From Persicaria tinctoria (taxonomy: Eukaryota; Streptophyta; Magnoliopsida; Caryophyllales; Polygonaceae): a DNA stretch of 64,000 bases. The DNA lies in NCBI GenBank assembly GCA_037127255.1, contig JBANSL010000009.1, forward strand, positions 27,472,475 through 27,536,474. Direction: 5' to 3'. This document shows, piece after piece, positions 19,035 to 64,000 of the stretch; the stretch's first letter is position 1, and each line of letters opens with the position of its first letter. Below the pieces are notes generated by a model. It made no database searches. It was given only the letters and a program-made list of their open reading frames with translations, and was not told where the DNA came from. A program made the position numbers and the translations under genes.

Positions 19035-20371
19035 TCTTGTGAGCTGAATCTGCTATGTTTTACAGTAACTTTTATATCGTTTTCTGCATACATTTCATGC
19101 ATTTGGGCGAAGATGGTACATAATCTATGTAGTTTATGTTTAATTGCCAAATTATGGAATCTACACTAGTTTCTGTTTAATTTCGCAGAATTCGAGGCAA
19201 ATTACAACAGTTCTGAGAAAGGTCGGAAATGCTCGAAAATCAACTACAGAAGTTCAAGGTCAAGAAGCAGCGGAATCAGTCGAATCAGGCTAGGAGACCA
19301 GCTTTACTCGATCTAAAGTAAACCTACTCGATCTCGACGAAGGTGTCCGAGCACAGGCCTTGTCGACTAGGAGCATGGTCGAGAGCTAGATCAACCCTCT
19401 CCGGAAACCCTACTCGATCTCGAGTACACCTAGTCGAGATCGACAACAATGTGACGCCAAGTCCAGAGTCGACGAGTTGTGACAAGTCGAGAAGCCAAGG
19501 ACGGAGACGCCGAGCCAACCTTACTCGATCTCGAGGAGCCTTGTCGAGATCGAGGACCACCATGGCGCCAATCCGAGTCCGCGACGAGCATTAGTTCCTC
19601 GACATCACCAGCAAGCCATCCTCGACGAGAACCCAACTCGATCTCGAGTTGCTTAGTCGAGATCGAGGAGCCAAGGAGCCATGATCTGAGCCATGTCGAG
19701 CAGAGCAACCCGACCAAGTCCAGCCAGCCATGGTCGACGACGAATCCTACTCGATCTCGAGTTGGCTTGGTCGAGATCGACGAGCCGTGTCCGGGAGCGC
19801 GTTACTCGATCTCGAGGAGCCTTTTATGCCTTTATGTGTTACTTTGCATGGTTATCGTTGCGGTGTTGATACCATGGCTTTGGAAATCTTTCATATATTG
19901 ATTTATTTCTGTCAAAATCTGAGATTCTGTGTTCGAATTTGCAATTTATACTTTCTGCATTTTTAGTCGATCTAGAGGAGGGGCTTGTCGAGATCGAGTA
20001 GGCCTTAGTCGATCTCGAGTTGGTTCTGGTCTATATCGAGTTGAGTTTCTGCCTCTGTCGTCGGATTTTGAGTTTCCGTTTCTTCTGTTGGTTGTCGATC
20101 TCGAGTTTACTGTAGTCGAGATCGAGTTAGCTTCTGTCGGTGCTTTGATTTCTTTCCTTCGTTTGTCTTTCTTTCTTTGTTTCTTTTTTTCTGTCTTTTC
20201 TGCTTTTCTGTGAGATTTACAGCTGCCTAGGATCCGCTGACACGCTTCCTCGTGGATTCGATCCTGACTTACTCTTACTGCATTGGAGGGAGTCTTGTAA
20301 TTATTTGCGTGGGCCTAAATCTGGTTTGATCTATTTTATTATATTTCATACTCGATTTCCTCCTCACAACA
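19035..20371 (+). repeat. 5' LTR of element C, promoter deleted
   Basis: Ends CTCCTCACAACA. Compared with its partner it lacks about 0.7 kb, from a TCGA-word cluster (joint at about 19812-19822) to TATGCCTTTATG, removing the TATA box. TCGA-NN-TCGA clusters remain at about 19310-19815 and 19965-20125. Confidence 0.9.
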
Positions 20372-20395
20372 AATTGACGCCGTTGCCGGGGAGGC
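20372..20395 (+). other. Primer-binding site of element C
   Basis: AATTGACGCCGTTGCCGGGG follows the LTR; one change from the usual TTGGCGCC. Confidence 0.8.
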
Positions 20396-20454
20396 TATCA
20401 TTCGCGCCTTAGGTATGCAGTTCTCACTTTTTCTTTGAGTTACTTTACAGGTGT

Positions 20455-21960: not shown

Positions 21961-22984
21961 GGTCGGAAAGTAGCAGAACAAAGAAGAACAGCAAGTCGAC
22001 CAGCAGCAAGTCGACATCGACAAGCACCTGGTTGATCTCGAAGAGGGACAACTCGATCTCGAGGAAACATTAGGCCAGCCTTCATCTGCACGGCACAACA
22101 ACTCGAGACCACAGAAACTAGTCGAGATCGAGAAGGAGCTGGTCGATATCGAGGAGTCCCAAGTCGATGTCGAGAAAGCTGCAACACCCCCGACATCTGC
22201 TCTGGCTCCGAATCAGAAAAAGAAGCTGCCTTTCCCCACCAAATCTCCAAAAGACCCGACAGAAAAGAAATTTCGGTGCTTCATCAAGATGCATCAGAAA
22301 CTCAATGTCACCATCCCCTTCGCAGAAGCTCTCAATGAAATCACATCCTATGTCAAGTTCCTGAGGGAGATCCTGAGCAAAAAGAGGTCAATGGCTGAAA
22401 TTATAGAGGAATGCAGCCACTTGGACATACTTGAGAAGAGGCCAGATCCAGGTAAGTTTGCTATAACCATTGGATTTGGTCCATATAAAATTAATGCTTT
22501 ATGTGATCTTGGAGCTAGTGTGAGCATAATGCCTTTAACAATTTGGTCAAAGATTAAGATAGGTGCCCTAGAGCTTGTGGATGCTAGACTTTACATGGCC
22601 AACAACACGGTGGTCATTCCAACAGGCATGGTGGATAATGTGCCAGTACAAGTAGGAAAATTCTTTGTCCCTGCTGATTTCTTAGTTGTTGATATGCAAG
22701 AAGTTCCTGCTTGTCCAATTATTCTAGGAAGACCCTTCTTGGCGATGGTGGATGCCAACATAAGCGTGAGGAAAGGAGTGCTCACTTTCAACATCAGCGA
22801 TGAGGTAATTGAGTATTCCTTTAATAAAACTGAAAGGCATACAGGTCCAATAGAAGAGGTAAAATCTATCTCAGCTGGCTACATCACTTGCGGGGAACCT
22901 AAAGTAAGAAATATGACCCCTGAGGATCTAGAAAAGAGGGATGTGAAGGCCCAGGTGGAGGAGATCATGGCAATCCTAAAATAG
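21961..22984 (+). pseudogene. Element C acidic linker and aspartic protease
   Basis: Linker at 21990-22180 with TCGA-NN-TCGA words, read as VDIDKHLVDLEEGQLDLEE and VEIEKELVDIEESQVDVE. Protease from about 22200: ITIGFGPYKINALCDLGASV with the Asp-Leu-Gly-Ala active site, then VDMQEVPACPIILGRPF. The EDLEKRDVKAQVEE tail leads to TAG at 22982-22984. The protease is open over 231 codons from 22289 and looks catalytically intact. Confidence 0.88.
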
Positions 22985-23329
22985 GACACAGAGAATCCAA
23001 TCGACACAAACCAAGGTACGTCGTTATGGACTAATTATTTTTCGGATGCCTTGATAGGAACCAAGTGTTGTGAGCGGAATCTGCCATGTTTTACACTTAA
23101 GTTTATATCAATTTCTGCATACATTTCACTCATTTGGGCTAAGATAGTACAGAATATATGTGGTTTATGGTTATTTGCCAAATTATGGAATCTACACCAG
23201 TTTCTATTTAATTCGCAGAATTCGAGGCATTTTACAGCAATTCTAAGGAAGGTCGGAAAAGCTCGGAAATCCACTACAGAAGTCCAAGGTCAAAGAAGCA
23301 ACGGAACCAGTCGAATAGAGCCGAGAACC

Positions 23330-23930
23330 CAGGCTACTCGATCTCGAGTACACCTTACTCGATCTCGACGAGCATGTCCGAGCACTGCCTTGTCGACCAA
23401 GAGCAGTGTCGAGAGCCAGACCAACCCAGCTCCGGAATTCTACTCGATCTCGACAAGACCTGGTTGAGATCGACGAAGCCCAGTGCCACACCCGGAGTCG
23501 ACGAGGCGAAGAGCTGATCGAGAAGCCAAGGATGAGAAGCCGAGCACAATCCTAGTCGACCTCGGCGAGACCTTGTCGAGATCGACGAGACACCCAGCGC
23601 CTGGCCGAGTCCATGCCGAGGAGCAGCTTCTCGACCAGAGAAGACCACACCCTAGTCGATCTCGACTAGGGTTAGTCGAGATCGACGAGACAGAGTCCAG
23701 ACCCAGGCTTGTCGAGCACACCTACCCGAGAAGACTTAGTCGACGGATCAATTCTACTCAAGGTCGACTAGGTCTACTCAAGGTCGACGAGTGCCAGGAG
23801 CCAAGTCCGAGCCACATCGAGCACCAGTTAGCCGAGACGACGAGTCCTTGTCAAGGTCGACCAGACCCTTGTCGATGTCGAGTAGCCCAGTTTCCAGAAA
23901 CGCGTCGACGTGACGAGTCCTACTCGACTT
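23330..23930. repeat. TCGA-NN-TCGA cluster (solo LTR, upstream of TATA)
   Basis: Words with GA, TC, GG, TG and CT centres, again unevenly spaced. A second, smaller cluster lies downstream of the TATA box at about 24775-25050. Confidence 0.9.
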
Positions 23931-24149
23931 GAGATTCCTTGGGCGTGAAGGAAGTCGATTTGGCCGGGATCTATCCAAAGTTGATCAAGATCTATCCATG
24001 GAAAGGAATCTATCAACTCATGAGGACATGCTACCTAAATTAGATTTATCTTTTCCTTATTGATTTATTTCCATGAATCTTTTTATTTATCTTTTAGCAA
24101 AGTAGATATAGATAGATGATTATTTCCTTGATTAGCGGGGTTTGATCAC

Positions 24150-24157
24150 TATAAATA
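24150..24157 (+). promoter_or_regulatory. TATA box of the solo LTR
   Basis: TATAAATA in the family context CACTATAAATAAAGCCCATG, downstream of the first TCGA-word cluster. Confidence 0.65.
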
Positions 24158-25334
24158 AAGCCCATGGGGCTCAGTTTTATTTATTCAATTTCAGAGCAAG
24201 ACAAGTAGTTCCAAAGAGAAGTTTAGGAGTTCTAAGGTTTTTAGGGTTTTGGCTTTCTACGAAAGTTGATTGCCGGGATTGTAAAGGCTTTTGAATATAG
24301 TTTTATGCAAGTTATTTCTTTTCATTCAATGTCTGCGAATGCAATGAGGCGTGAGTAGTCCACCAACTTCTGGGGCTGGGGTGAGCCCGACGGTGGCCAT
24401 GTGAGGTGACGCGGTAAAGGTCAGATCTTTTTGTGCAATTCATCTTCTTTCCCTATAAGCATGATTCTTTTGCGAGAGTTGAAAGTGATCCTTGTTTGTA
24501 TTATTGAAGCGAAAGTGATCTTAATGCAACTTGGATTAATTATGTGAAAAGGGTTAGTAACAATTAGGGTTTATGCGAAAGCCTCTATATGCCTATTTGT
24601 TAATGACGAAAGTTATTTGATGGAAAGCATGATCTTTTGTGCCTTTATGTGTTACTTTGCATGGTTATCGTTGTGGTGTTGATACCTTGGCTTTGGAACT
24701 CTTTTATATATTGATTTATTTTCGTCGGAAATATGAGTTTTGGATTCGAGAATTTGCAATTTAAATTTCTGCATTCTAGTCGACACAGAGGAGAGCTTTG
24801 CCGAGATCGAGTACAGCCCTTGTCGATCTCGAGTAGGAACTGGTCTAGGTCGAGTTGAGTTTTCTTCTGTTGTCGTCGATTTTTAGTTTCTGCCTATGCT
24901 GTTCCTTGTCGATCTCGAGTAGGTGTGGTCGAGATCGAGTTGATTGTTGTCTGTCGAGTTGATTGCTTTCGTTTCTGTTTTCTATTTTCATCATTGTTCT
25001 TTGTCGATATAGAGGACTATTACTCGAGATCGAGTAGCTTCTGTGGCCTCGATTTAGTTTATGCTTTGCTTTGTCTTTTCTGTCTTCGTTTAGTTCATTG
25101 CTTTTGTTTGTTATTTTCTGCTTTTATTTCTGTTTCTTTCCTTGTTTATGTGTTTCTGTTTGTGAGAATTTACAACTACCTAAGAACTGCTGACGTGCTT
25201 CATCGTGGATTCGATCCTGACTATTCTCTTACTACAACGGGAGGAAGTCTTGTATTTATTTGTTGAGACAAGGAATTAGGTCTGAACTTTATTTTATATT
25301 TATTTCATACTTGACCATCCTCTTGCGTACAACA

Positions 25335-25941
25335 CCAAGTATGGGGTCAAGGTCGACCAAGACTCCTCGACATCGAGTAGCCGGACTGAAGAGCCAGGCT
25401 CCTCGAGATCAACCACCACCACCTCGCTGGCTCGGCTTCGCCTTCCTCGATGTTGAAGCCACCAGAAGCTGAATCCTACTCGAGATCGAGTAGCTCACTT
25501 GAGATCGACCAATCCTGACCTTCCCCAGCTTCTGCATCCTCGAGCAGCTCACACCCAGAATTTGAAAACTCGTCGAGATCGAGTAGCCCTACTTGAGATC
25601 GACCAAACAATGTGGTCCCCGATTCCGTCTCTACGAAGGTAAGACAAGGTATGGATCTTTCTTCTCCTATTTCCATTAAAGATTTATCTATACATGGGAG
25701 AGGTTTGCCTTGGTATGTGCGCATATGTAGGATATTCAATGATGAGCCCAAGGAGTATGAGGTTGGAGACAAGCTCTATGTGTCTAAATCAAAGGATCAT
25801 TGGTTCCCTAACAAATTCAACAAGAAGAGGATGGGGCCTTTCGTGGTGAACAAGATCCATTCTGGAGGATTGCAGCTAATGGACAAGAATGGAGTCCTAT
25901 TTGAAGCCCAAGCTACATGGGCCCTGCAGATGCCACCTTGA
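25335..25941 (+). pseudogene. Element C linker and integrase C-terminal remnant
   Basis: Resumes after the solo LTR at CCAAGTATGGGGTC. Linker words at 25350-25600. The open stretch to 25941 encodes EVGDKLYVSKSKDHWFPNKF, KKRMGPFVVNKI and LQMPP, as in A and B. With TGA at 25939-25941 this end is intact. Confidence 0.65.
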
Positions 25942-27437: not shown

Positions 27438-29485
27438 TGTTGTGAGCTAAATCTGCCATGTTTTACAGTAACTTTTATATCGTTTTCTGCATACATTTCA
27501 TGCATTTGGGCTAAGATAGTATATAATCTATGTAGTTTATGTTTAATTGCCAAATTATGGAATCTACACCAGTTTCTGTTTAATTTGGCAGAATTCAAGG
27601 CAAATTACAGCAGTTCTGAGAAAGGTCGGAAAGGCTCGGAAATCAACTACAAAAGTCCAAGGTCAAGAGGCAGCGGAATCAGTCGAATCAGGCTAGGAGA
27701 CCAGCTTTACTCGATCTAGAGTAAACCTACTCGATCTCGACGAAGGTGTCCGAGCACCGGCCTTGTCGACTAGGAGCATGGTCGAGAGCCAGATCAACCC
27801 GACTCCGGAAACCCTACTCGATCTCGAGTACACCTAGTCGAGATCGACAACGATGTGACGCCAAGTCCAGAGTCGACGAGTTGTGACAAGTCGAGAAGCG
27901 GAGGACGGAGACGCTGAGCCAACCTTACTCGATCTCGAGGAGCCTTGTCGAGATCGAGGACTACCATGGCGCCAATCCGAGTCCGTGACGAGCACCAGTT
28001 CCTCAACAACACCAGCAAGCCATCCTCGACGAGAACCCAACTTGATCTCGAGTTGCTTAGTCGAGATCGAGGAGCCAAGGAGCCAAGATCCGAGCCTTGT
28101 CGAGCAGAGTAACCCGACCAAGTCCAGCCATCCATGGTCGACGACGAATCCTACTCGATCTCGAGTTGGCTTGGTCGAGATCGACGAGACGTGTCCGGGA
28201 GCACGTTACGCGGTTTGACTATCCTACTCGGTTTGGGAATCCTTGAGGTCGAAGGAAGCCGAGTCTATCAGAAATCCATCACGTTCTATCTATGGAAGAC
28301 AAGATCTATCAACATGAAGAGACTTACCTATTTAGATTTGATTTCCCCACTTTAGATTTAAATTTCTTTATGGCATTTATTTATCTTTTAAGCTTTTTAG
28401 ATATAGATAGATATCTTCTATCCTTGATTAGCAAGGAATAGAAGCCTATAAATAAAGCCCTAGGGGCTAGTTTTTCATTCATTCAATCACACATTCAATT
28501 CCATTCAAGTAAGTCGGAGTAGAGAGAGAGAGTTTGTGGCAAGCAAGGTGGAAAGGCGAAAGCGGATTTGTCTTGTTGGTTATAAGCTTTCTTTATTTAG
28601 TTTAATACAAGTTTCTTTTCATACATCAATGTCTTCTATTGCGATGAAGAGCGAGTAGTCCACCCACTTCTGGGGCTGGGGTTAGCCCAACGGTGGCCAT
28701 GTAAGGTGATGCGGTAAAGGTCAGATCTTTTTATGCGATTTGTCTTCTATCCCTATGAGCATGATTCTTTTGCGAGAGTTGAAGGTGATCCTTGTTTGTA
28801 TTATTGAAGCGAAAGTGATCTTAATGCAACTTGGGTTAATTATGTGAAAAGGGTTAGTAACAATAAGGGTTTATGCGAAAGCCTCTATATGTCTATTTGT
28901 TGATAACGAAAGTTATTTTGATGGAAAGCATGATGTTTTATGCCTTTATGTGTTACTTTGCATGGTTATTGTTGCGGTGTTGATACCCTGTCATTGGAAG
29001 TCTTTCATATATTGATTTATTTCTGTCGAAATCTGAGATTCTGTGTTCGAATTTGCAATTTATACTTTCTGCATTTTTAGTCGATCTAGAGGAGGGGCTT
29101 GTCGAGATCGAGTAGGCCTTAGTTGATCTCGAGTTGGTTTTGGTCTATATCGAGTTGAGTTTCTGCCTCTGTCGTCGGATTTTAAGTTTCTATTTCTACT
29201 GTTGGTTGTCGATCTCGAGTTGAATGTAGTCGAGATCGAGTTAGCTTCTGTCGTTGCTTTTATTTCTTTCCTTCGTTTGTCTTTCTTTCTTTGTTTCTTT
29301 GTTTTTGTCTTTTCTGCTTTTCTGTGAGATTTACAGCTGTCTAGGATCCACTGACACGCTTCCTCGGGAATTCGATCCTGACTTACTCTTACTGCATTGG
29401 AGGGAGTCTTGTAATTATTTGCGTGGGCCTAAATCTGGTTTGATCTATTTTATTATATTTCATACTCGATTTCCTCCTCACAACA
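27438..29485 (+). repeat. 3' LTR of element C
   Basis: TGTTGTGAGC to CCTCACAACA, 2048 bp. TCGA-NN-TCGA clusters at about 27705-28190 and 29080-29245. Confidence 0.93.
28447..28454 (+). promoter_or_regulatory. TATA box of element C 3' LTR
   Basis: TATAAATA in AAGCCTATAAATAAAGCCCT. Confidence 0.65.
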
Positions 29486-30567
29486 ATATGCATGTTTTCC
29501 AAAAGTTTGAAAAAATGACCCTCATTGAAATTTTTTGATTAATGTCATGGAAGCTATATTGAACTCGACGATGCAAAATTGGATTCATTAGAGATATAGC
29601 ATGAAATTGCCTAGTAAAGGGAAGTCACAATGAAGTGCATATTTTGATGAAAACCATGAAAGAAAGTAAAATTTGAAGTTGCTTTTGGCATGTTGCATGA
29701 TAAGAGGATAGAGGACTTTATATTTCCATATAATGCTCAATGTTATATGCCTAGCCATACCTATGCTTATGCATCACAAAAGCCATATATATGCCTTATT
29801 TCAATTATTGCTCCACATGATCTAAATATTGTCATTCTTTACCTTATTTCCTATCCGGGGATTATATTGAGAATGATGTTACGTGATGGAGATATATTAT
29901 ATGGTTGTTGTGTTGTGTTTATCATTATTGGAGTTTGGCGGGAAAATGTTTGAAATATATGGAAAAATTAATGAGAGAGAAAAAATCCAATCACCTCAGG
30001 AGATAAAGGTAGATTGACCCTGCACGCTAAGATAATAGTTCGGCGAGATGGGATACATTGTGAGGAGTCCAAAGCACTAAGTATCCGGGGCCATTCATGA
30101 CACCCATGTTTGCGACTCGCGAGAAGGCAGTGCTAAGGTTAGAGAGGTAAAAACATTATATTGTGAAAAAAACATTATGAAAGGTGATGAATCTTATGAA
30201 AAGGAGTGTGGTATGAAATTCAGTTTGGAAAATACTCCATTTCCCTGGATCATTAGCACCACATTGCCAAAAAATTGCCCACCTTTAGCCTTTTACCAAT
30301 CTACTTCTTATTTGAGCTTAAATTAAAGTCCTCTTGATTATTAATGCTTTGTCACAAATAAATGTTTTGCATAACCCTCCTTTTGTGAGTAGATGTTTCT
30401 TTTATTTGCACATGCATGGATTTGTGACACTAGTATCTTTTCGAGGATAGTAATTGATTGCAGGGACATATGGCAATGAATATAAGATGTTGAGAGTTTT
30501 GATTCCTTCCCCTGAATGACAAATAAAAGTATTGCTTGAGGACAAGCAAGCTTAAGTATGGGGTGTT
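29486..30567 (+). other. Element B 3' UTR, second part, and polypurine tract
   Basis: Begins with the second copy of ATATG and continues CATGTTTTCCAAAAG, as the uninterrupted UTR of A does at about 2620. It contains the conserved CAATCACCTCAGG block (about 29988) and ends CTTAAGTATGGGGTGTT. Confidence 0.85.
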
Positions 30568-30762
30568 TGTTGTGAGCATGATTCGCCATGTTTTACACTT
30601 ACTTTTATATCGTTTTCTGCATACATTTCGTACATTTGGGTTAGAATAATACAGAATCTGTGTAGTTTACACTTATTTGCAATATATGGAGGTCTACACA
30701 AGTTTTTGTTATATTTCGTAGAAATCGGACGCATTTTGGAGCTTAAAGGAAAGTCATAGAGA

Positions 30763-30862
30763 AAACCATTCCGGAATGGCTCAACTGGAAAGGACTTGCG
30801 GGTAGTACCGAAAGGTCCCCGGTTCGAACCCCGGATGGCCGCTCTTTTTTTGCCAATTCAAT
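30763..30862 (+). mobile_element. Short tRNA-derived SINE
   Basis: A 100-bp insertion in an otherwise collinear LTR. It has a polymerase III box A, TGGCTCAACTGG (30777-30788), and box B, GGTTCGAACCC (30821-30831), 44 bp apart, and a T7 run at 30845-30851. Flanks show an imperfect 11-14-bp duplication: GAAAGTCATAGAGA at 30749 and GAAAGTCATGGAGG at 30863. The acceptor arms do not pair, so this is not a functional tRNA. It begins near the palindrome CCATTCCGGAATGG. The family is unknown to me. Confidence 0.7.
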
Positions 30863-31706
30863 GAAAGTCATGGAGGAGCTAAGAATGATGCAGCTGGAGA
30901 AAAGGCCATATTTCGGCATTCATCATTCTGAATCAAGCTTTGATGTCATCATGAGAGTTGTAGCCCTCGAAAAGAGCTTTCCAACGCATGGTCATATGCG
31001 TCAATCCGACGAACGAGGACTCGGGAAAGTGTGTTTTAAGAACAGAGCAGAAAGCTGAGAGATATACTCGATCTCGAGTTAATCTACTCGATCTCGACAA
31101 AAGATGTCTGAGCACACCTGGTCGAGCAGAGCTAAGCGAGAAACTGAGAGTCAGAGATAACCCGACTCCAGAAGCCTTACTCGATCTCGAGTTACCTGGC
31201 CGAGATCGACAACTTCCTAATGCCATGTCCGGAGTCGAGGAGCTTGACTATGTCGAGGAACCGAGGACTGAAGACGCCGAGCACCAACTCTACTCGATCT
31301 CGAGGAAGTTACTCGATCTCGAGGAACCCATGAGCACCTGTCCGAGCTTGTTTGAGCACCAGCAACCCGAGACGCCCAACCAAGCCACAGTCGACAACCA
31401 CGTTACTCGATCTCAAGTAAGCCCTACTCGATCTCGAGGAGATCTTCTGAAGACGCGTTACGCGGTGAGCTGTCCGTGTTATCCGACGCGGTTTTCCTTT
31501 CCTTTGAGGAGAAGGAGTCCGAGATCTATCCACATCTATCAAAGCACATCAAGACCTACCTACACATGGAAGATTTACCTATTTTAGATATAATTTCCCT
31601 TTTAAGATTTAATTTCTTTATTTAATTTAATTATCATTAAGCTTTTAGATATAGATTTAGATATAGATAGAGATATTCTATCCTTGAATAGCAAGGAGTA
31701 GAAGGC

Positions 31707-31714
31707 TATAAATA
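31707..31714 (+). promoter_or_regulatory. TATA box of element B 3' LTR
   Basis: TATAAATA followed by AAGCCTTAGGGGCTG. Confidence 0.65.
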
Positions 31715-32727
31715 AAGCCTTAGGGGCTGGTTTTTCATCATTCAATTTCAGAGAGAATAAGTAAGTAGTAGTAGAGAGAGAGAGAGAGTTTGTGGCAAGC
31801 AGGGTGGAAAGGAGAAAGCGGATTTGTCTTGTTTGGTTGTAAGCTTTCTTTATTTAATTCAATGCAAGTTAGTTTCTTTTGTTATTTAATGTATTTCTTG
31901 ATAATGAAGAGCGAGTAGTCCACCCACTTCTGCGGCTGGGGTGAGCCCGACGGTAGCCATGTGAGGTGACGCGGTAAAGGTACAATCTTTCTATGCGATT
32001 CGTCTTCTATCCCTATGAGAATGATTCTTTTGCGACAGTTGAAGGTGATCCTTGTTTGTGTTATTGAAGCGAAATTGATCTTAATGCAACTTGGGTTAAT
32101 TATGTGAAAAAGGGTTAGTAACAATTAGGGTTTATGCGAAAGACTCTATATGCCTATTTGTTAATAACAAAAGTTATTTTGATGGAAAGCATGATCTTTT
32201 ATGTCTTTATGTGTTACTTTGCATGGTTATCGTTGTGGCGTTGATACCCTGGCTTTGGAAGTCTTTTATATATTGAGTTTATTTCATCCGAAATCTGAGT
32301 TCTGTGTTCGAAATCAGCAATTTGAGGTTTATGTTTTTAGTCTATCTAGAGTAGTTTTAGTCGATCTAGAGTACTCTTTACTCGAGATCGAGTTAGGTTA
32401 AGTCTAGATCGAGTTGCTGTTGTCGATTTTGAGTTTTTTGTCATCGTTGTCTTTTGTCGATCTCGAGTAGGAGTTAGTCGAGATCGAGCAGTTTCTGCCT
32501 TTGCTTTCGTTTCTGTTTTGCTTTGTTATTTCTGTCTTCGTTTCTGTCTTTCTGTTTGCTTTTCTGTGAGATTTACACCTACCTAGGATTCGCTGACACG
32601 CTTCCTCGTGGATCGATCATGACTTCCCACCACTGCATAGGGAGGGAGTCTTGTAATTATTTGCTGGGGCATGAATCTGGTTTGATTTATATTTCTATAT
32701 TTTGAACTCGATTTCCTCCTTACAACA

Positions 32728-33540
32728 GTCTCTTCTCAGGGAAGTCCATCCTTTTGCATTCGCTGGCGATTTCTTAGATATATCGCTTGTTGCTGAGGAT
32801 TTTTTTGAGGAACTTGACATATGCAGACATTTCTTAAAAAGCTTCTGTAAAAGGAATTGAGACATTTAGATCTTCAAGCATCTTAACAAAATGTTTAAAC
32901 CTACCTGAAGTGGGATCTTTTAGCGCCTTGGAAGGAAAAGGTAGTGTCTTTTTCTGCTTTGGAGCCAGAACAGATGTCGGAGGTGTTGCATAGTCCTCGA
33001 CTTCGACCAAAAGTTCCTCGACGTCGACTACAGGAGTCGACTTCGAGTTCTGTTATCGCGCAACAGATTCCTCGATGTCTTGTGGCTGATCGAATTCGGG
33101 TGAATCTACTCGATATCCAGTAGACTGGTTGACGTCGACTACGTTATGCTCGATGTCGAGTAACTTCTCAGCTTCATCCCGCTGCTTTCCGACCTCTGGC
33201 TCTTTTAGTTGGTGCCCGCTCCTGAGCTTTGCAGTCGCGACCTGTTTGGTCTTCCCCTCGGGATTTGGTTCTGTATGCCAATGGAGTTGCCCGGTCGGTC
33301 ATGGAATTTGTGCCGCGAATTGACCCATCTAGGTCTCAATATTCCTCTTCCAGATGTCCAGTTCTCCAAATCTTGTATTCATGTTTTGGAGCTGATTGTT
33401 GATGGCGCTATTGCCTTGCTTGCTATCTGCTTGATTCCGGCGCATCAGATCGAGGATTATCTGTAGGTCATCCTTCCGATGATCCCTTTTTGGATGTCCT
33501 AGAGCTCTGTATGTTGGGGGGTTCCTAGGGGCACCTTGGT
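32728..33540 (-). pseudogene. Element D Gag tail, linker and protease start
   Basis: Read on the minus strand: the tail (TRFGELDIWKRNIE), a linker with TCGA-NN-TCGA words at about 32995-33160, and the segment before protease (LNVSIPFTEAF, VKFLKKILSNKR), ending inside KRMDFPEKR. Stops are present near 32930, 32880 and 32830. The catalytic part of the protease is not in this window. Confidence 0.75.
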
Positions 33541-43050: not shown

Positions 43051-43297
43051 CGACGAGTGCCTGTCCGAGTAGAGTTGGGATTCCTTAGGGCCGAAGGAGG
43101 AAGATTCTATCCAAATCCATCAAGTTTTATCTATGGAAGACGCAATCTATCAACACATGAAGACTTACCTATTTAGATTTATCTTTTCCCTTTTAGATTT
43201 ATTTCCATTAAGAATTTTATTTATCTTTTAGCAAATTAGATATAATTTTAGATATAGATATAGATATTCTATCCTTGATTAGCAAGGGTTAGAAGCC

Positions 43298-43305
43298 TAT
43301 AAATA
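43298..43305 (+). promoter_or_regulatory. TATA box of element H 5' LTR
   Basis: TATAAATA in AAGCCTATAAATAAAGCCCT. Transcription would start about 30 bp downstream, near TTCATTCATTCC. Confidence 0.7.
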
Positions 43306-49613: not shown

Positions 49614-51560
49614 TGTTGATAGAAGAAATCGAGAATGCAAATATAAAATATAACTAAAGTACAGCACACCGGATTTTGTCCCTTGCAAATGATTACAAGA
49701 CTTCCTCCCGATGCAGCAGCGGGAGTCAGGATCGATCCACGAGGAAGCGTGTCAGCGGATCCTAGGTAGCGGAGAAATCTCACGGACAAATGTCGACCAC
49801 AGATGTCCTCGATCTCGACTAGGGCTACTCGACAGAAGACCGGACAAGTCAAGCAGCGCAGCAGCAGTCGCAGGATGGTAGTCGATCTCGACTAGGGCTA
49901 CTCGAGATCGAGTAGAGTTGCTTACGTCGAGATGGCTTGGTCGATCACCTGCACACAGAAGCTACAGCGATTCTGGAATCAAAGATCAGTAACTCGAGAT
50001 CGACCAAAGTTGGTCGACATCGAGGAAGGGCAGAAACTAATAGGAAATAAAGTAAAAACAAACGCTTTCGGATTCTCGAAATAAACTGTATATAAAAGAC
50101 TTCCAAGATTGGAGTTTGCAACAACGATAACCAAGCATGCATAAGGCGAGAATAAAACAGATAATCATGTAATTCGCATTAAAGGACTAAGCTTTCACCT
50201 TTTCCAACAATTAGACAACTCTTTCAAGAAACCCTAATTGTATCTACTGATTTTATGTTTATAATCCAAGTTGTTAGCATGGACCTCCATTAGATGGGTA
50301 ATAAACACATAACAAGTAGTAGATGCTCAAAACACGATAAAAGTCGGATCTTTACCTCAAACGCACATGGCTATCGCCGGGCTCGCCCCAACCCTAGAAG
50401 TTGGTAGACTACTCGCGCTTCATCGCAACCTCAGACATCATTGTTTGAAAGAAAACTAATTGCATTAAAATAAACCAAAGTTTACAACCTCTTGAAGCCA
50501 ATTCCGCTCTCGCTTCACAACTTCAATCGGCCGCTCACTCTCTCTCTTTACTTCTCCTACTTACTTCTCTCTGAAATTGAATGAATAGAAATCAGCCCCA
50601 AGGGCTTTATTTATAGCCTTCTATTCCTGGCTATTCAAGGATAGAATATCTATATCTATATCTAAAACTATATCTAACACTTTAAAGATAAATAAAAGCT
50701 ATAATGAAATTAAATCTAAAATAGGGAAATATATCTAAAGTGTCTTCAAGTGGATAGATGATGTATCTTTGATAGAATCGGATAGAATCGGCAAACTTCA
50801 GGCCCAAGGAAACCCAAACCGAGTAGGATTCGTCAACACGCCATGCGGCTTATGGAACCGTCGTCGATCTCGAGTAGAGCTTACTCGATCTCGACTAGGA
50901 GTGTTGTCGACCGGGCTTGGCTCGGCGTCTCGGCTAGCAGGTCCTCGATGTGGCTCGGTCATGGCTCTTAGTGCTCGTCGATCTCGAGGAGAGTTCCTCG
51001 ATCTCGAGTAGGGGTGGATCTTCGACTTCGGCCTTCTGGTGTTGTCGAGGAACCCTTCTCAACATGCTCGGACATGGTCTTCAGCTGCTTCGTCGACATC
51101 GAGTATGGTCCTCGACATCGAGTAATGTGTCTGGGCGCCAGGTCGGGTACTCTCTTCCTCGGTCTCCTGGGGCAGGCTTTCCTCGACTTCGGGTTGTTCT
51201 CCGAGGTCTTGTCGATCTCGAGTTGTGGCACTCGATCTCGAGAAGGGTGTGGAGCCGGGTTCTTCGTCTTCAGCTTCTCGACATAGGCTTCTCGATCCTG
51301 GCAGGTGTCTAGGCATGGCTTGTCGAGATCGACTAGGGTTTGTCGATGTCGAGTAGCTTTGTGCTCCGGTTCCTGCTTCTTCATTTTCTCCGAAATGGTT
51401 CCATATTCTGCGATATTAAACAGAAACTTATGTAGATCTCCATTTCTGACAAACAAGCATATACTACATAAATCCGACATATTCCCAACCCGAAATATGC
51501 AAAATGTAAAGAATATGGAACTGAAATATGCATTAAGATGTGGCTACTTTGGAGACATCA
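49614..51560 (-). repeat. 5' LTR of element G
   Basis: Minus-strand TGATGTCTCCAAAGTAGCC to TTCTATCAACA, 1947 bp. TCGA-NN-TCGA clusters at about 50865-51350 (upstream of TATA) and 49800-50030 (downstream). Confidence 0.92.
50608..50615 (-). promoter_or_regulatory. TATA box of element G 5' LTR
   Basis: Minus-strand TATAAATA in AAGGCTATAAATAAAGCCCT. Confidence 0.65.
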
Positions 51561-51815
51561 AGCATCATGCCCTTATCAATCTTGTCAACGGTGAAGATAG
51601 GAGCAATAGAGCCTGTGGATGCTAAACTATACATGGCAAACAATACAGTGGTCATTCCTATAGGTATGGTTGATAATGTCCCTGTACAGGTTGGTAAGAT
51701 CTATATTCATGCTGATTTCCTTGTCATAGACTACGAGGAAGATCCTACTTGCCCTATTATTCTTGGTAGACCTTTTCTAGCCACCGCAGATGCTAAAATC
51801 AGCGTCAGAAAGTGA
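51561..51815 (+). pseudogene. Element F protease, second part
   Basis: Starts with the second AGCAT copy and continues the protease: IGAIEPVDAKLYMANNTVV, PVQVGKIYIHADFLVID, CPIILGRPFLATADAKISV. A TGA at 51813-51815 and a shift of frame separate it from the next stretch. Confidence 0.85.
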
Positions 51816-52433
51816 TTGCTCAACTTCACGATAGGCGACGAGGTCCTAGATTTCTCTTTTTTCCCTACAAAGGAGAAAATTCCATGGATGGAGGTGAAGA
51901 GTATAGGCAACCACGGGGAGGAGCACACAACAACGGAGAAAAGTGCCAAAAAGCTCCTCGACATCGACCAGGTCTGCTCGACGTCGACCACGCTCCTCGA
52001 CTTCGACCACGCCAACTCGGTGTCGACTTCTCCTGTTGAGCACCAGACTTGTGAAAAGCCTAAGTACGGGGTCCCTGTACTCGACGTCAACCACCCCTAC
52101 TCAACATCGAGTACAGGGACCCTATACTTAGCCCAAATATATCTATTTTGGGACCCTCGACCCAAAGATTTCTGTTTTGGGCACGAAAAGGTAAGTTCAG
52201 GTATGATTTCAACCTCTCCTCCATCCATTAATAAATTTAATAATAATCTTAGAGGAGATAAGGCCTCATGGGGAGCTAACTTGCGCATAATTAGGACTGA
52301 AAAGAAGAAGAAGAAAGACATAGGACTCTATACGAACAACCACCTATCAGGGGAGCTTGCATACTACAATCAGGATCTAGATGATCCGGTAGAAGAGCCA
52401 AGCACAAGAGGGCCCCACATTGTCAGTTACTGA
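51816..52433 (+). pseudogene. Element F subfamily II C-terminal segment
   Basis: 205 open codons. It first finishes the protease tail (LNFTIGDEVLDFSFFPTKEK), then a linker with TCGACATCGA, TCGACGTCGA and TCGACTTCGA words (LLDIDQ, LLDFDH), then PKDFCFGHEKVSSGM, NLRGDKASWGANLR, EKKKKKDIG and LSGELAYYNQDLDDP. Conserved with element G over about 100 residues although the two LTRs differ. Function unknown. It ends at TGA 52431-52433, followed by the family 3' UTR start block. Confidence 0.65.
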
Positions 52434-55859: not shown

Positions 55860-57533
55860 TGATGTCATCATAGTTTCCTGATGTGACCCTAAATTGTCAT
55901 GTTTTACATTGACTTTTATATCGATTTATGTATACATTTCATGCATTTGGGTTTTATTAGTACATAATCTATGTAGTTTATGCTTATTTTCCAAATTATG
56001 GAGTGTACACTAGTTTTTGTTTCATTTTGCAGAAATCGGACGCACTTTGGAGCTTAAAGGAAAGTCATGAAGAAGCTAAGGATGGTGCAGCTGGAGAAAA
56101 TTCCACTTTTTGTCATTCATCATTCTAAATCAAGGTCTGTTGTCTTCATGAAATTTGTAGCCCTCGAAAAGAGCTTTCCAACGCATACTCACTTCCATCA
56201 ATCGGGCGAACGAGAACTTGGGAAAGTTTGTTTCAAGAACAGCGCAGAATGCCGAAAGCTGACGGGACTAGTCGACGTCAACCACTTTGGTTGACGTCGA
56301 TCGAGTACTTTACAGTCAAAATCACACGTAGTCGAGCAGCTGATCATTCGAGCAGTACAAATCTACTCGACGTCGAGTACCCATGTCGAGTCCCCGATGT
56401 AGCCGAGCCCGAGTGCAATCCGAGGAGAAGAAGACCTACTTGACATCGAGTACTTTGGTCGACGTCGAGTACTATCCAGAAGCAATCTGAGTCGAGAATC
56501 AGTGAAGTTCGAGCAATTTGGGTTACTTGCAAGCAAATGAACGAGATATTTTATCCATTCAAGTGAAGATATATCAAATCCAATAGAGATTTATCCACAT
56601 TAGATATTTTCGTTGTTTATTTTAGAGATTTTATTTATCAAATTTTATCTTAAGCTTTTAGATAGATAGTTTTAGATAAAGATAGATTGTTCCTTCCTTG
56701 AATAGCGGGGATTGAACACTATAAATAAGGCCCTAGGGGGCTGATTTTCATACATTCAAGCAAAGCCGTCTTCGGGCTCAAGGAGAGAGGAGACAGAGAG
56801 GAGCCGAGTTAGAGAGGAGGAGGAACGTTTGGAAGGTTTTGTAAGTTTTAGTTTATTTTATGATAAATTTAGTTTCTTTTATTATGTTTTGTTTCTAATT
56901 TCCCCTCTTCTAGGGTTGGGGTGAACCCAACGATAGATATGTGTGTTTAATTTATAAATCCATCAATTTTTATGTCTTTATCATCATCTACCTATATGCT
57001 TAATCTTTTGCGAGAGTTGGGGAAATTCCTTATTCATGATATTGAAGCAAAAGTGATCTTATTATGAATTTGGAAAGGAATTAGGGTTTATTTGCGAAAG
57101 CCGACTAATCCTAATTAAGAAAAGGTAGTAACACTTAGGGTTTATGCGAAAGGCTCTATATTCCTATTTGTTAATGACGAAAGTTATTCGATATAAAGCA
57201 TGCATCTTTATGTGATTTATAATCTACACATATGTTTATTGTTGCGGTGATACCTAACCTTGGAAGTTTGCATCTTTATTTATTGTATTTTATTATTTTT
57301 ATTCGACACATATTCTACTCGACACCAACCACCATTGCCTCTCCATCCCTCAACATTGACCCCTCTGTTCATTGTCTACAGCCGTCTTCATCACCTTTTA
57401 CCGTTATCCATGAACCACAAAAACCAATTAAACCTAGAACCGCTGACTTCTCTCTGGAGGACGAACCTGACTCCCCCATACTATAGCGGGGGTCTTGACT
57501 ATAAATTTATTTGGTCGAGAAACCCTCTCGTCA
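55860..57533 (+). repeat. 3' LTR of element I, diverged
   Basis: Starts TGATGTCATC after the polypurine tract. TCGA-NN-TCGA cluster at about 56265-56480, mostly TCGACGTCGA. TATAAATA at 56720-56727. The end is weakly defined: the family's terminal CTCCTACAACA is not visible, and I place it near CTCTCGTCA. Confidence 0.6.
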
Positions 57534-59145: not shown

Positions 59146-59252
59146 ATAACTTCATTTCAGTTATGTTGGTTAAAGAAGAATTTGTTGAGAACGTGACAAA
59201 TACATAGAAAATCATAAATAATCCTCGGGATAAGTCTTTTGAAGTGTAGTTG

Positions 59253-59582: not shown

Positions 59583-60497
59583 CTGTGGGGGAGGGTCACG
59601 TCCATCGAGAGGGTGTTGATGTCCAGCATTTGTGCCATGTTTTTATATCTATTTTAGCTCCTTATTCTATCATTTTATATATTTTGGGTTAGAATAGTAC
59701 ATAATCTTTGTAGTTTATGCTTATTTTCCAAATTATGGAGTCTACACTAGTTTCTGTTTAATTTCGCAGAATTCGGACGCACTTTGAAGCTTAAAGGAAA
59801 CTCATGAAGAAGCTAAGGATGGTGTAGTGGGAGAAAAGGCCATATTTTGGCATCCATCATTCTAAATGAAGAGTAGATGTCTTCATGAGAGTTGTAGCCC
59901 TCGAAAAGAGCTTTCTTACTCGTACTCATATGCGTCTATCCGACGAACGAGGACTTGGGAAAATGTGTTTCAAGAACAGAGTAGAATGTTGAGAGCTGAC
60001 ACATCTACATGACGTCGACCAAATCTCCTCGACGTCGACCAGACAAAAAACCTACCTGAGTTCGAGAAGAGAAAGCCACTTGAGGAGCTGCAAAGAGAAG
60101 CCGAGATCGACGAGTTCTACTTGACGTCGACCAAAGTTCCTCGACGTCGAACACACCTGGGAGCCAACCCGAGCTCGAGAGGAGAAGATTGTTCGAGGAT
60201 GCCGAAGACCACCCAAGATCGAGGACTTTACTCGATATCGACTAAACTTGGTCGACGTCGACTAGGCGATTTTTGGGCCGCGAGTCTATTGGGTCAATCC
60301 GAGCATGTGATGATTACTTGGGCACGAAGCAAGGCCGGATCCATCCAATTCTATCAAGACCTATCTATGGAAGGAAGGATTTATCCACTACGTGAAGATT
60401 TCGATATTTTTCTTTTAGGATTCATGTTTCTTTTATCAAAATTATATCTTTAGGACTAGATAGGGATTTATTTCCTTGGATAGCATGGATTAAAGCC

Positions 60498-60505
60498 TAT
60501 AAATA
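60498..60505 (+). promoter_or_regulatory. TATA box of element J LTR
   Basis: TATAAATA in AAGCCTATAAATATAGCCCA. Confidence 0.65.
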
Positions 60506-60539
60506 TAGCCCATGGGGCTGGTTTTTATTCATTCCAAGT

Positions 60540-60540
<1 letters not shown>

Positions 60541-60582
<42 letters not shown>
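60541..60582 (+). repeat. (AG)21 microsatellite just downstream of the LTR TATA box
   Basis: 42 bp of perfect AG, starting about 36 bp after the TATA box. Other LTRs have short AG runs at the same place (about 28518 and 31772). Confidence 0.95.
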
Positions 60583-60588
<6 letters not shown>

Positions 60589-61586
60589 GCTGAGAAGGAG
60601 TTAGAGAGCGAGAGCAATTTGGCTTCGATCGGTTGTAAGTTTTGGTTTTTTTTAATGCTAGTAATTAGTTTTCTTTTATTATTGATGTCTTTTCTTATGA
60701 TGAAGAGCGAGTAGTCCACCCACTTCTAGGGTCGGGGTGAGCCCGACGATAGCCATCCATGCTTGAGTTAAAGATTCGATCTTTGTTATGTTTTGATCAT
60801 CCACTACCTTGTATATGTTTATTTCATATTCAATAGAGATTCAAGTTAACCACTTGGATTATAAACATAAAATTGGAAGATACAATTAGGTTTTCTTGAG
60901 AGTGTTGTCTAATTGTTGGAAAAGGCAAAAACTTGTTCCTTTGATGTGATTGCATGATCATTCCTCTTATTCTTGCCTTATGCATGTTTGGTTATCGTTG
61001 TTGCAATCCCCGGTCTTGGAAGTTTCATTTTACATTATTTAAATCGAAATTTTCAATTTATTTTCGTTACTATTTTCTCCTCGACATCAACCAGATCTAG
61101 TCGACGTCGACTACTAATATTCGATGTAGGGTTTCTGCTCCAGATCGCTGCTCGTTTTTTTCCCTGCAGGTCCTTGACTTCGACCAGCCTTACTCGACAT
61201 CGATGACTTCTACTCGACGTCGAGGACACTTAGTCGACGTCGACCACCACCAGTGACGCTTTTTGCTCGAATTCGACTGTGCTGGACCCCTTTCGACCAC
61301 CGTTGGTCGAGGTTGAGTACTCTGGAGTCGATTTCTGCCCTTGAGATTCATCTACTACCTGAGATCCGCTGACCATCTTCCTCGAGGATCGATCCTGACT
61401 TCCTGTTGCTACATCTGGAAGAAGTGTTGTAATTATTTGCGTGGGCAATATCTTGTTTGATTTATATTCTTATATTTTGAACGCGACTTCCTCCTACAAA
61501 AAATTGGCGTCGTTGCCTGGGAAGCAATCATTCGCACCTTAGGTAGTTAGATCTCATGTTTTCCTTGAGTTTTTTTTTTGCAGTGT

Positions 61587-62892
61587 ATGCGCCGTTCTGA
61601 TCAACCACCTGAGTTTGACTCCTTAGACGACCCGGAACGTCTTATACACATCCACTCTAGACTGAAAAGGATCATGGCGACTACCAAAACACAAGTCCAA
61701 ATGATCGAAAGGCTTCCAAGGGAACTAGCAGCCAACAATGCTGCTCTCACCGCTGAGAGAGCACGCAATGAGCATGAAGCGGAACTAAGGAGGCAGGTGG
61801 AGGTTGAGCTTGCCCTATATACCACCACTGCGAAGGACTACATGCATCCGACTCTTGTCGTGCTTGAATCGGCTATTCTAGTCCCACCTAATAATTTTGA
61901 AATTTGCAATGCCTTCCTTACTGAAATTAAAAATAATGCTTTCGAAAAGGAGATTTAATGAATGCCATCTCGCTCATATTACTACTTTTGCTGACATGTG
62001 TCAGACTCTTGCTGAAGGTACTACTCTTGAATATGTGAGAATGAAAGTTTTTCGTTGGTCTCTTGCAAGTCCAGCATTGAAGTGCCTTTAAGGTCTCCCT
62101 GCACGATCCCTCACAACATGGGCAGAGGTTAGGAATGCGTTCCTCAACAAATTATTTCCTCCAGCCAAGACATCACTTCTCAGACAAAAGATTACAACTT
62201 TCAAACAAAAGCACGGGGAGCCGCTAGCACGAGCATGGGATCGATACAAGGATCTGTTGCGATCCTGCCCTACCCATGGGAAGCCACCCTATGTGATTCA
62301 GGAGATTTTCTACATTTCTCTTGAGATTTTCTACATTTCTCATGAATGCCAAGGAAAGGATCCATCAATTCACGCAATATGAGTACCTCACGTAGACACC
62401 AGCAAAGGCATGGGCTACTATCGAAAGACTAACCAACTTTGACAACACCTATGGGGCTCCTACGAATTAAGATGAAAACACTTATGCAAGGCTAGCCCCA
62501 TCCATGCCATTATATGAGCCTTCTAAGGAGATTGATCCTCATGTCAGGGAGCAGTTCTACAAGGACCAAAATCGCAAGCTCCTCAAGAAAGTCCAATTTA
62601 TATCTGTCAACCAGCCCTGCATCGACACACCAGACCAGAGTGCCCACATACGAAGCAAGTCGGGTTGGTAGAAACTCATGAGTAGATGGCTACGCAGGGG
62701 GTCCCAATCGCTATATAGGGGACCAGCGGTTCCATCAACCACAGTGGAACCAAGGTGCCACTAGGAACCCTCCACCATACAGAGCTCCAGGACATCCAGA
62801 AAGGGACCAGCGGAAAGATGATCTACAGATGGTCCTCGACAAGATGAGGAGGAATCAGGCACCACAGCAGCAATCCAACAGCGCCATCCAGA
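61587..62892 (+). pseudogene. gag: Element J gag
   Basis: ATG at 61587 (MRRSDQPPEFDSLDDPERL). Coiled N-terminus and HPTLVVLESAIL are open to 61958, then a frameshift in the AFYGRF segment. The capsid-like part continues (MCQTLAEGTTLEYVRMKVFR) with a stop at about 62088, then WDRYKDLLRSCPTHG, a 21-bp tandem duplication (EIFYISL repeated, 62302-62343), and a frame shift. MPLYEPSKEIDPHVREQFYK follows. The zinc knuckle is destroyed by a deletion after NQPCID. Cut by LTR K. Confidence 0.82.
62302..62343 (+). repeat. 21-bp tandem duplication in element J gag
   Basis: GAGATTTTCTACATTTCTC appears twice at 62302 and 62323, adding seven codons without shifting frame. Confidence 0.85.
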
Positions 62893-64000
62893 TGTTGTGA
62901 GCAGAATCTGCCATGTTTTACAGCAACTTTTATACTGATTTCTGTATACATTGCATTCATTTGGGTTCAGATAGTACAGAATCTATGTAGTTTATGCTTA
63001 TTTGCCAAATTATGGAATCTACACCAGTTTCTGTTTAATTCGCAGAAATCGAGGCTTTTACAGCAATTCTACAGAAGGTCGGAAAAGCTCGAAAAAACAC
63101 TACAGAAGTCCAAGGTCAAAGCAGTGGAACAAGTCTCAGAGACGAGGCTACTCGATCTCGAGTAGGCCCTACTCGACATAGACCACCATGTCCGAGCACC
63201 AGCTTGGTCGACAAGGCCTGATCGAGAGCCAGACAACCCGAGCTCCGGACCCTACTTGACCTAGACAAGCACTGGTCTAGGTCGACGTAGCCCCGATGCC
63301 ATGTCCGGAGTCGGCAAGGAAAAGCTGCCCGAGGAGCCGAGGACGACCAGGAGCACTCGCTGCCAGCGACTCGACTCGCTGCCAGCGACTCGACTCGCTG
63401 CCAGCGACTCGACTCGCTGCAGCGGAAAAGGAAACTCGTTGCCGCGGACCAAGCCACCCGCTGCCAGCGGAAGAGCCAGCTCACGGGAGCGGAAGCAGAC
63501 ACCCAACTCGACCTCGAGGAGAACTTGTCGAGGTCGACGAAGACTCTGAGACATGTCCGAGCCAGTCGAGCACACCAACCCGAGCAGACCATGTCGATGA
63601 CCAGCCTTACTCGACATCGACAAGGGGTGGTCGAAGTCGACGAGCGCCAGCGAGCATGTCCGATCCCATCGAGGAGATCCACTCGAGAAACCCTAGTCGG
63701 CGAGCCAGTCTACTCGAGGTCGACTAGGTCTACTCGACATCGACAAGCACCCAGTGAGCCAACTCCGAGCCACATCGAGTAGATTCAAGCCAAGCCGAGA
63801 AGCCGTACTCGAGGTCGACTAGACCTACTCGAAGTCGAGTAAGGCCGTGTCCAGAATCTTCTCGACGTAGCCCTGTCCGAGTAGAGTTGGAGTTGCTTGG
63901 TGCCGAAGGCGGAAGATTCTATCCGATCTATCAAGTTCTATCCAAGGAGACAAGATCTATCAACATGAAGACATATTTCCCTATTTAGTTTTATCTTTTT
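62893..64000 (+). repeat. LTR K, truncated by the window end
   Basis: TGTTGTGAGCAGAATCTGCC start, inserted in J's gag; left flank CCAGA (62888-62892) is the expected duplication. TCGA-NN-TCGA words at about 63145-63320 and 63500-63840, with a 19-bp tandem repeat between them. Confidence 0.85.
63356..63424 (+). repeat. 19-bp tandem repeat inside the TCGA-word cluster of LTR K
   Basis: Unit CTCGCTGCCAGCGACTCGA, three full copies and a partial one. Each contains the small hairpin CGCTG-C-CAGCG. Related CGCTGCCAGCGG words follow to about 63470. Not seen in the other LTRs. Confidence 0.9.

Follow-up and report, generated by a model that had tools for sequence, protein, structure and literature searches.

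Why should one 10-bp palindromic word be repeated so often, and so exactly, within a single family of transposable elements? The question is raised by a 64,000-nucleotide stretch of the genome of Persicaria tinctoria (contig JBANSL010000009.1, positions 27,472,475 to 27,536,474, here called the window), to which all counts below refer. The word, TCGANNTCGA, is present in 175 exact copies, against a mean of 1.25 and a maximum of 4 in 100 dinucleotide-preserving shuffles of the window, and lies mainly in the long terminal repeats (LTRs) and protease-flanking linkers of putative Athila-lineage Ty3/gypsy retrotransposons. The explanation favoured here, to which about an even chance is given, is that the words are dyad-symmetric DNA sites for a dimeric protein, supplied by autonomous relatives, that would keep copies of the family out of silencing.

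Occurrence of the word

A sequence-only reading of this DNA had described tens of dispersed copies of the word, and the comparison with shuffles bears this out. The range that it gave, beginning at 19310, was too narrow, as the first word stands at 469 and the last at 63838. The tetramer TCGA is found 719 times, 369 of these outside words, and the gap within the word is exact: 175 pairs of TCGA are separated by 2 bp, with 2, 0, 2, 1, 1, 0, 0 and 0 pairs at gaps of 0, 1, 3, 4, 5, 6, 7 and 8 bp, respectively. None of the 15 other palindromic tetramers gives more than 11 pairs at any gap of 0–6 bp in the window.

The words were also counted by compartment, the compartments spanning 63,862 of the 64,000 bases and the borders of the linkers having been drawn with the word positions already known. 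The LTRs hold 121 words and the two linkers that flank the protease hold 50, with 4 in other segments. Within the LTRs, 78 words lie in the 10.8 kb upstream of the TATA box (7.2 per kb), 39 in the 9.4 kb from the TATA box onward and 4 in LTR fragments. The gag-protease linker contains 21 words in 1.1 kb (18.8 per kb) and the post-protease linker 29 in 2.5 kb (11.7 per kb). No word is present in the 32,343 bp formed by gag (9.8 kb), protease (3.4 kb), the 3' untranslated region (3'UTR, 8.0 kb) and a copia block (11.1 kb). Counted in this way the word is enriched, and its claimed restriction to LTRs and linkers holds for 171 of the 175 copies; the further claim of a second LTR family devoid of the word does not hold, because both types of LTR start, TGTTGTGAG.. 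and TTGATGTC.., bear words. The 4 remaining words lie at 52675–52805 and 59320, in segments outside the named compartments (5.9 kb).

Symmetry and spacing of the sites

When the words are aligned on their cores, the resulting frequency matrix is close to its own reverse complement over positions -8 to the centre (correlation 0.65–1.0 at each); a neighbouring word 20 bp off contributes part of what is seen at -8 and -7. The consensus reaches beyond the core: among distinct contexts, 89% have T at -3 and 87% have A at +12, positions -1 and +10 are taken by C or G, and A is favoured at -2. The central NN is also strand-symmetric among 153 distinct 20-mers (TC 39 and GA 38, CA 11 and TG 8, GG 10 and CC 7). 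The near-symmetry of the matrix and of the centre therefore points to recognition of the word in double-stranded form.

The word had been proposed to extend to a (C/G)-word-(G/C) form. Of the 175 words, 171 do have a flanking C or G at -1 and 170 have one at +10, but the form is not a longer palindrome, since the two outer bases are complementary in 66 of 175 words where 85.6 would be expected if they were independent (59 against 73.9 among the 153 distinct contexts). The sites seem to combine one CTCGA-type half with one GTCGA-type half. The outer bases favour G..G and C..C above complementary pairs, and the outer bases of doublets avoid pairing too.

The spacing of the words had been called irregular, a description that is rejected by their arrangement in doublets: 114 of the 175 words stand in doublets 19–22 bp apart, and 60 pairs fall at this distance against 9.0 when words are scattered at random within their 37 clusters (2000 trials, never more than 21), with related LTR copies entering all the spacing counts separately. 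A distance of 20–21 bp is about two turns of the double helix, so that the two sites of a doublet would face the same side. Longer periods are found at 91–95 bp (37 pairs against 9.2) and 111–115 bp (44 against 9.3), under the same random placement, and accompany tandem units of 85–113 bp at 1617–1868, 24818–24977, 27927–28184, 42800–43026 and 47371–47597. In viral contigs at least 120 stretches fit the doublet pattern, nearly all of them, among the matches listed, having a single match place.

The same features bear on a role in RNA, in which the words, as hairpins or as Gag-binding sites, would serve the packaging or dimerisation of the genomic RNA. That RNA would include every region with words (U3, the LTR after the TATA box and the linkers), and adjacent words of a doublet have reverse-complement centres in 18 of 54 distinct cases against 10.1 expected (22 of 60 against 12.3). 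The bases flanking the core are, however, less complementary than independence would give, as described above, the outer bases of doublets pair at -1 in 15 of 54 cases where 26.2 would be expected, and the matrix is nearly strand-symmetric. Moreover, folding of the cognate halves gave a mean of -5.43 kcal/mol against -5.88 for swapped halves, all 20 swaps (range -6.16 to -5.53) being more stable. As the halves are unmatched and their cognate folding is weaker, the dyad symmetry appears to be a property of half-sites and not of a hairpin. The anti-complementary flanks and the weaker folding disfavour an RNA hairpin or dimerisation signal, and the RNA explanation is regarded as very doubtful.

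The elements that carry the word

Self-comparison together with inspection of the ends delimited 14 LTRs or LTR pieces, belonging to elements that are nested in one another. One element is complete in outline, with an LTR (42107–44330), a primer-binding site (PBS), a gag region, a 3'UTR, a sequence resembling a polypurine tract (PPT) and a second LTR (46697–48920); its LTRs are 98.3% identical and it is flanked by a 5-bp target site duplication (TSD), GTTCC. This element sits inside the minus-strand gag of another family member. A second element, whose LTRs (19034–20372 and 27438–29486) are 95% identical, is inserted in the 3'UTR of a sister copy. The LTRs that carry words are as follows.

42107..44330 (+): LTR F, 5' LTR of the complete element; words at 42495–43026 (8) upstream of the TATA box at 43297 and at 43923–44141 (5) downstream of it; PBS immediately after the LTR; TSD GTTCC
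46697..48920 (+): LTR G, 3' LTR of the same element as LTR F; words at 47085–47616 (9) and 48513–48731 (5); bounded by the PPT-like TATGGGGTG before and the TSD after
19034..20372 (+): LTR B, shorter and without a TATA box, followed by a PBS-like sequence; words at 19328–20125 (14); 95% identical to LTR D
23066..25314 (+): LTR C, 3' end placed from a partial match; words at 23338–23881 (7) and 24823–25033 (4)
27438..29486 (+): LTR D; words at 27731–28184 (8) and 29102–29239 (3)
30568..32727 (+): LTR E; words at 31068–31437 (6) and 32382–32487 (3)
34789..36436 (-): LTR L; words at 36003–36237 (5, upstream of the TATA box) and 34974–35190 (5); PBS adjoins
49614..51561 (-): LTR N; words at 50864–51352 (10, upstream of the TATA box) and 49809–50023 (5); PBS adjoins
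59616..61499 (+): LTR J; words at 60029–60261 (4) and 61101–61276 (5); centre CG in 6 of 9
55879..57294 (+): LTR I, part; words at 56367–56468 (2), centre CG, upstream of the TATA box only
62893..64000 (+): LTR K, cut by the end of the window; words at 63152–63838 (9)

LTR K also holds a 19-bp tandem repeat, ACTCGCTGCCAGCGACTCG, at 63355–63424 (3.7 copies, 98% matches).

Each LTR had been said to carry one cluster on either side of the TATA box. This is true of all eight LTRs with the TATA sequence CTATAAATA (C, D, E, F, G, J, L and N; nine LTRs were analysed), but not of LTR B, in which the TATA box is lost, or of the partial LTR I, which has words upstream only. Such an arrangement is what would be expected of an enhancer array recruiting a host activator to the promoter in the LTR, a role also proposed for stress-box repeats in other plant retrotransposons, and host transcription factor sites are the main rival to the favoured explanation. 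The motifs of Sireviruses, for instance, were matched mainly to stress-related transcription factor sites in the available part of their description (PMC2829016). A host factor would nevertheless have to account for the 50 of 175 words that stand not in LTRs but in linkers (37 lie within open frames and are maintained from one frame to another), for a centre that varies by lineage, and for a copia block in the same DNA without words; it is considered possible, though unlikely.

The PBS aattggcgtcgttgccgggg, which we take to be of the tRNA-Asp type, or near variants of it, follows the LTR ends at 4194, 44330, 34789 (-) and 49614 (-), with weaker variants after 20372 and 61499. The coding order is gag, gag-protease linker, protease, post-protease linker and a conserved tail of 97 residues. 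The window contains 148 stop-to-stop open reading frames (ORFs) of at least 90 amino acids, and the Pfam scan took 22 ORF pieces outside the copia block. Gag (PF03732) was matched in ORFs of the family with E values of 1.9e-12, 4.4e-10, 1.1e-7 and 1.6e-6, and protease (PF13650) below the curated cut-off, with E 0.005 in the window and 6.6e-5 in a relative, P0001. These 22 pieces yielded neither reverse transcriptase nor integrase, so that the copies present here look non-autonomous. The Athila-lineage Ty3/gypsy label is putative and rests on the PBS type, the gag and the protease. The closest gag-protease match from a named plant is to Asparagus, at 45% identity over 42% of the query.

The copia element occupies 6579–16138, with LTR-like repeats at 6579–7576 and 15139–16138 that are 98.5% identical, and its reverse transcriptase reaches about 60–68% identity with those of named plants. 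After the reverse transcriptase there is an extra ORF (13986–14732) that matches PF20167, 'Putative plant transposon protein', with E 6.9e-16 and is perhaps env-like or a captured gene.

Conservation of the core and change of the centre

Nine of the 14 LTRs were compared, giving 34 diverged pairs, with two recent pairs kept apart. Across the diverged pairs the core of the word is 84.6% identical at aligned bases, against 48.8% for the spacer 5–13 bp away and 44.3% for the centre NN; other identities are 77.1% for T-3/A+12, 69.1% for lone TCGA, 57.1% for CpG outside words and 65.0% for other LTR bases. Words were retained whole in 427 of 796 cases in the unmasked alignment, taken in both directions. 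Because words can attract the aligner, they were replaced by N in both sequences, upon which 109 of 340 mapped words lay exactly opposite a word, against 3.1 expected from shifted positions, and 144 of the 340 had no word of the partner LTR within 12 bp; this masked test omits 55 of 395 words that are opposite gaps. An alignment artefact is thus rejected as the source of the conservation, since masking lowers the figure yet leaves it far above expectation, and word position appears to be partly conserved and partly turned over. The LTR pairs are not independent, and the conservation figures are therefore effect sizes and not probabilities.

The centre behaves differently from the core. Taken up to reverse complement in 95 words from eight LTR families, NN agrees at 0.648 within a family and at 0.324 between families, with a permutation maximum of 0.452. 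Individual LTRs have their own centre (GA/TC in 19 of 19 words of LTRs B and D, 9 of 9 in E, CG in 6 of 9 in J), with LTRs F and G, K and L being mixed.

Could the word simply have been spread by tandem duplication, template switching or gene conversion without any binding function? The tandem units of 85–113 bp, the homogenised centre in each LTR family and the 144 mapped words without a nearby partner are all in keeping with such neutral expansion, and to this extent the suggestion of a self-propagating microhomology unit is partly supported, with the centre evolving in concert per LTR. It is less easily reconciled with a conserved core beside unconserved immediate neighbours, with the LTRs having 117 exact words against 53 with one mismatch, when neutral decay should give the reverse, or with words in coding linkers in several frames. 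Passive copying appears insufficient, as the cores are conserved far beyond their neighbours, and neutral expansion is thought improbable.

Words within coding linkers

Eleven ORFs were read for the frame of their words. Nine of them contain words, 37 in all, divided 23/11/3 between the frames, and 13 further linker words fall outside the ORFs read. The linkers are these.

469..591 (+): gag-protease coding linker, 3 words, read as LDID, LDLE and SKST in ORF 297–1289
5790..5952 (+): gag-protease coding linker, 4 words, one frame
22011..22173 (+): gag-protease coding linker, 5 words, one frame
32997..33159 (-): gag-protease linker of a minus-strand copy, 4 words
37179..37228 (+): gag-protease coding linker, 2 words, two frames
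41099..41222 (-): gag-protease coding linker, 3 words, one frame, in ORF 40510–41649 (-)
1551..1859 (+): post-protease linker, 6 words, 5 of them inside ORF 1584–2195, three frames
17958..18266 (+): post-protease linker, 7 words, 6 of them inside ORF 18000–18602, three frames
25367..25582 (+): post-protease linker, 3 words
40177..40332 (-): post-protease coding linker, 6 words, two frames strictly alternating, in ORF 39956–40612 (-)
39497..39609 (-): 4 more words, placed in the post-protease linker region by position only
51958..52006 (+): post-protease coding linker, 3 words, two frames, in ORF 51816–52430

Of the 17 words read in the gag-protease linker (five ORFs), 15 share one frame, and 11 of 15 spacings there are divisible by three, as would be expected if an acidic linker peptide, V/L-D-I/L-D/E, were the functional unit and the DNA word its by-product. 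The 20 words of the post-protease linker are, on the other hand, split 8/10/2 over the three frames, and 121 words lie in LTRs; this mixture of frames rejects a peptide repeat as the full explanation, and the idea is now scarcely credible. The clearest case is ORF 39956–40612 (-), in which the words are read as LEID, SIST, LDLD, SIST, VEVD and SISI at spacings of 20, 22, 20, 64 and 20 bp, none of them a multiple of three. T-3 is present in 117 of 120 LTR words and in 10 of 21 words of the gag-protease linker, a difference that codon constraint may explain.

The relative P0001, from another contig in ENA, is 65% identical over 44% of one query and 71% identical to another ORF of the window. Although its words, like those of a second relative, P0002, are implied from peptides, P0001 contains peptide images of eight words, and these pair into four doublets, each with an implied distance of exactly 20 bp, across three frames; in 5000 shuffles the mean number of doublets was 0.0018 and never exceeded one. 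In P0002, whose protease part is 91% identical, pairs of images stand at implied spacings of 18 (2), 19 (1) and 21 bp (2). Besides these two, no peptide-image doublets at 19–22 bp were found among 118 homologues (from the best 120 of 712 matches), and tblastn for the DNA of relatives in viral and prokaryote collections returned no match. Given that the words are read in differing frames and that P0001 retains images of doublets, selection appears to act on the DNA.

The ORF of the post-protease linker ends in the conserved C-terminal domain of 97 residues (18312–18602 (+), 1905–2195 and 25648–25938), which is 94% identical among copies and 66% identical to the tail of P0001. It has no Pfam match, and when the P0001 tail was used to look for homologues the sole match was P0001 itself. 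The model of the domain is of low confidence (pLDDT 60.6) and consists mostly of beta strands. It was rejected as a candidate binder, the model being too weak and the best PDB match having an E value of 0.33.

Relation to known systems

The sequence-only reading knew of no description of such an arrangement. The word itself was not found among the papers listed in searches of the literature, mainly open-access, nor was a report of such an array in Ty3 elements, and the string TCGA is absent from the available portions of PMC11656987 and PMC12844716. At least one of three exact 10-letter strings occurs in 158 papers; among the 20 listed, none deals with retrotransposons as judged by its title or the opening of its abstract, and the degenerate form appears in none. 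A similar architecture has, however, been described for Sireviruses, which are Ty1/copia elements (PMC2829016, here and below in its available portions), and their repeated motifs (RM boxes) are the nearest described architecture. RM boxes are high-copy short palindromes, of unproven function, that cluster before the TATA box of the LTR and, in nine Sireviruses, also in a linker upstream of the env-like gene. They form CpG islands, have an element-specific sequence with 8–32 copies per element, share a CGG-CCG core in 12 of 13 cases, and were reported to be lacking in the 'classic' retrotransposons used for comparison; TCGA occurs in two of the 13 motifs given, those of Vitis and Tnd-1. The Persicaria word shares with them its palindromy, the LTR cluster before the TATA box, the internal linker copies and the CpG islands. 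Unlike RM boxes, it has the core TCGANNTCGA and not CGG-CCG, accompanies a Ty3-type gag (PF03732) rather than a copia-type one while the copia block has no words, forms doublets of about 20 bp, clusters a second time downstream of the TATA box and enters coding linkers in several frames.

The second comparison is with the VANC targets of VANDAL DNA transposons, where, as far as the available text of PMC5735166 and PMC10398659 goes, a short motif is dense in one transposable element family and rare elsewhere, stands in tandem repeats that evolve in concert with lineage-specific variants, and has a local effect on CG methylation. The present word is likewise a dense short motif limited to one family within 64 kb, and its centre NN differs by lineage and changes together, much as VANC21 motifs have lineage-specific C- and T-types (PMC5735166, in part). 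VANDAL elements are, however, DNA transposons with motifs that are mainly noncoding and in one orientation and with a known binder, VANC (same extracts), whereas the Persicaria family consists of LTR retrotransposons with a dyad-symmetric site, 37 words inside open frames and a mixed orientation as judged by the centre.

Extracts of PMC10398659 further describe TnpA of Spm and MURA of MuDR as element proteins whose action correlates with lower methylation, MURA acting on nonautonomous copies. Unlike the present family, Spm and MuDR are DNA transposons, and the MURA sites are at terminal inverted repeats. Sunflower Tekay elements are LTR retrotransposons with an extra ORF and a proposed factor of their own, named beside VANC (PMC12844716, in part). 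In this they resemble what is proposed here, although the available Tekay account has no dispersed DNA word.

A proposed function

The sequence-only reading had listed a target for a DNA-binding protein among its suggestions, and this is the one that survives, on the grounds of the dyad consensus, the exact gap, the doublets, the conserved core between free spacers and the independence of frame. From these patterns we infer protein binding, paired dimers on one helix face, an element-encoded binder and activation or anti-silencing as the outcome. A dimeric protein would bind double-stranded TCGANNTCGA at its fixed 2-bp gap, with two dimers adjacent to each other on the same helix face at each doublet. 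The binder would be encoded by the element and not by the host, being supplied by autonomous relatives, and its binding would activate, or lift silencing from, the element's own copies. Non-autonomous copies may use the protein in trans, a step suggested by the lack of reverse transcriptase and integrase in the family ORFs tested, and a high density of words may mark a copy as 'self'. A family-specific trans factor that recognises its own copies by density, as VANC proteins do (PMC5735166, PMC10398659), is favoured because words are found in coding linkers, the copia block is free of them, lineages have their own dialects and the words are kept up in apparently non-autonomous copies. The fuller version, in which an element-encoded dimeric protein reads a dialect of TCGANNTCGA, density marks self for de-silencing, selection is strong enough to carry the site through the linkers on either side of the protease in whatever frame, and non-autonomous copies persist because they retain the tag, is put forward tentatively and given well under an even chance.

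The CpG content around the words, the one feature of this DNA that bears on the suggestion of an insulator or methylation array, is as expected if they keep CG methylation low locally. With the words excluded, the observed/expected (o/e) ratio of CpG is 0.82–0.95 within 120 bp of a word, 0.62 at 121–250 bp and 0.51–0.52 at 251–1500 bp; within 60 bp the GC content of 0.50–0.51 and CpG o/e of 0.85–0.95 give these regions the character of CpG islands.

Several observations weigh against the favoured explanation, beginning with this gradient. When every TCGA is removed it weakens, to a CpG o/e of 0.64–0.70 near words against 0.47 far from them, and GpC o/e is lower near words (0.75–0.93 against 1.06–1.10). 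CpG transitions in the recent pairs number 7 of 93 in words, 20 of 165 within 60 bp, 9 of 58 at 61–250 bp and 18 of 87 beyond, and no methylation is deduced from them because general divergence in the matching zones (3.2, 5.8, 5.1 and 6.9%) runs roughly parallel. A simple homodimer does not explain the shortage of complementary outer bases, and the 144 mapped words without a counterpart nearby speak of turnover. The noncoding 3'UTR is also empty, so that words do not simply coat all noncoding DNA, and they are not arrayed in one orientation as VANC21 motifs are in the available text of PMC5735166. Moreover, the Pfam scan gave no candidate gene for a DNA-binding protein, all 22 ORF pieces from outside the copia block being gag, protease or nothing significant; no VANC-family protein was seen among the ORFs scanned, but neither was an autonomous copy found in the window. 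Finally, a host transcription factor fits the LTR part of the distribution equally well.

Significance

Sequence-specific anti-silencing by a transposable element protein has been demonstrated for DNA transposons (available text of PMC5735166 and PMC10398659), and the authors of the Sirevirus study called for promoter tests of RM boxes (PMC2829016, in part). Being short, exact and abundant, the word can serve as bait for its binder, and a scan for doublets is applicable to any plant genome in the search for other dialects. If the favoured explanation is true, the escape of LTR elements from silencing and the persistence of non-autonomous families would become directly testable.

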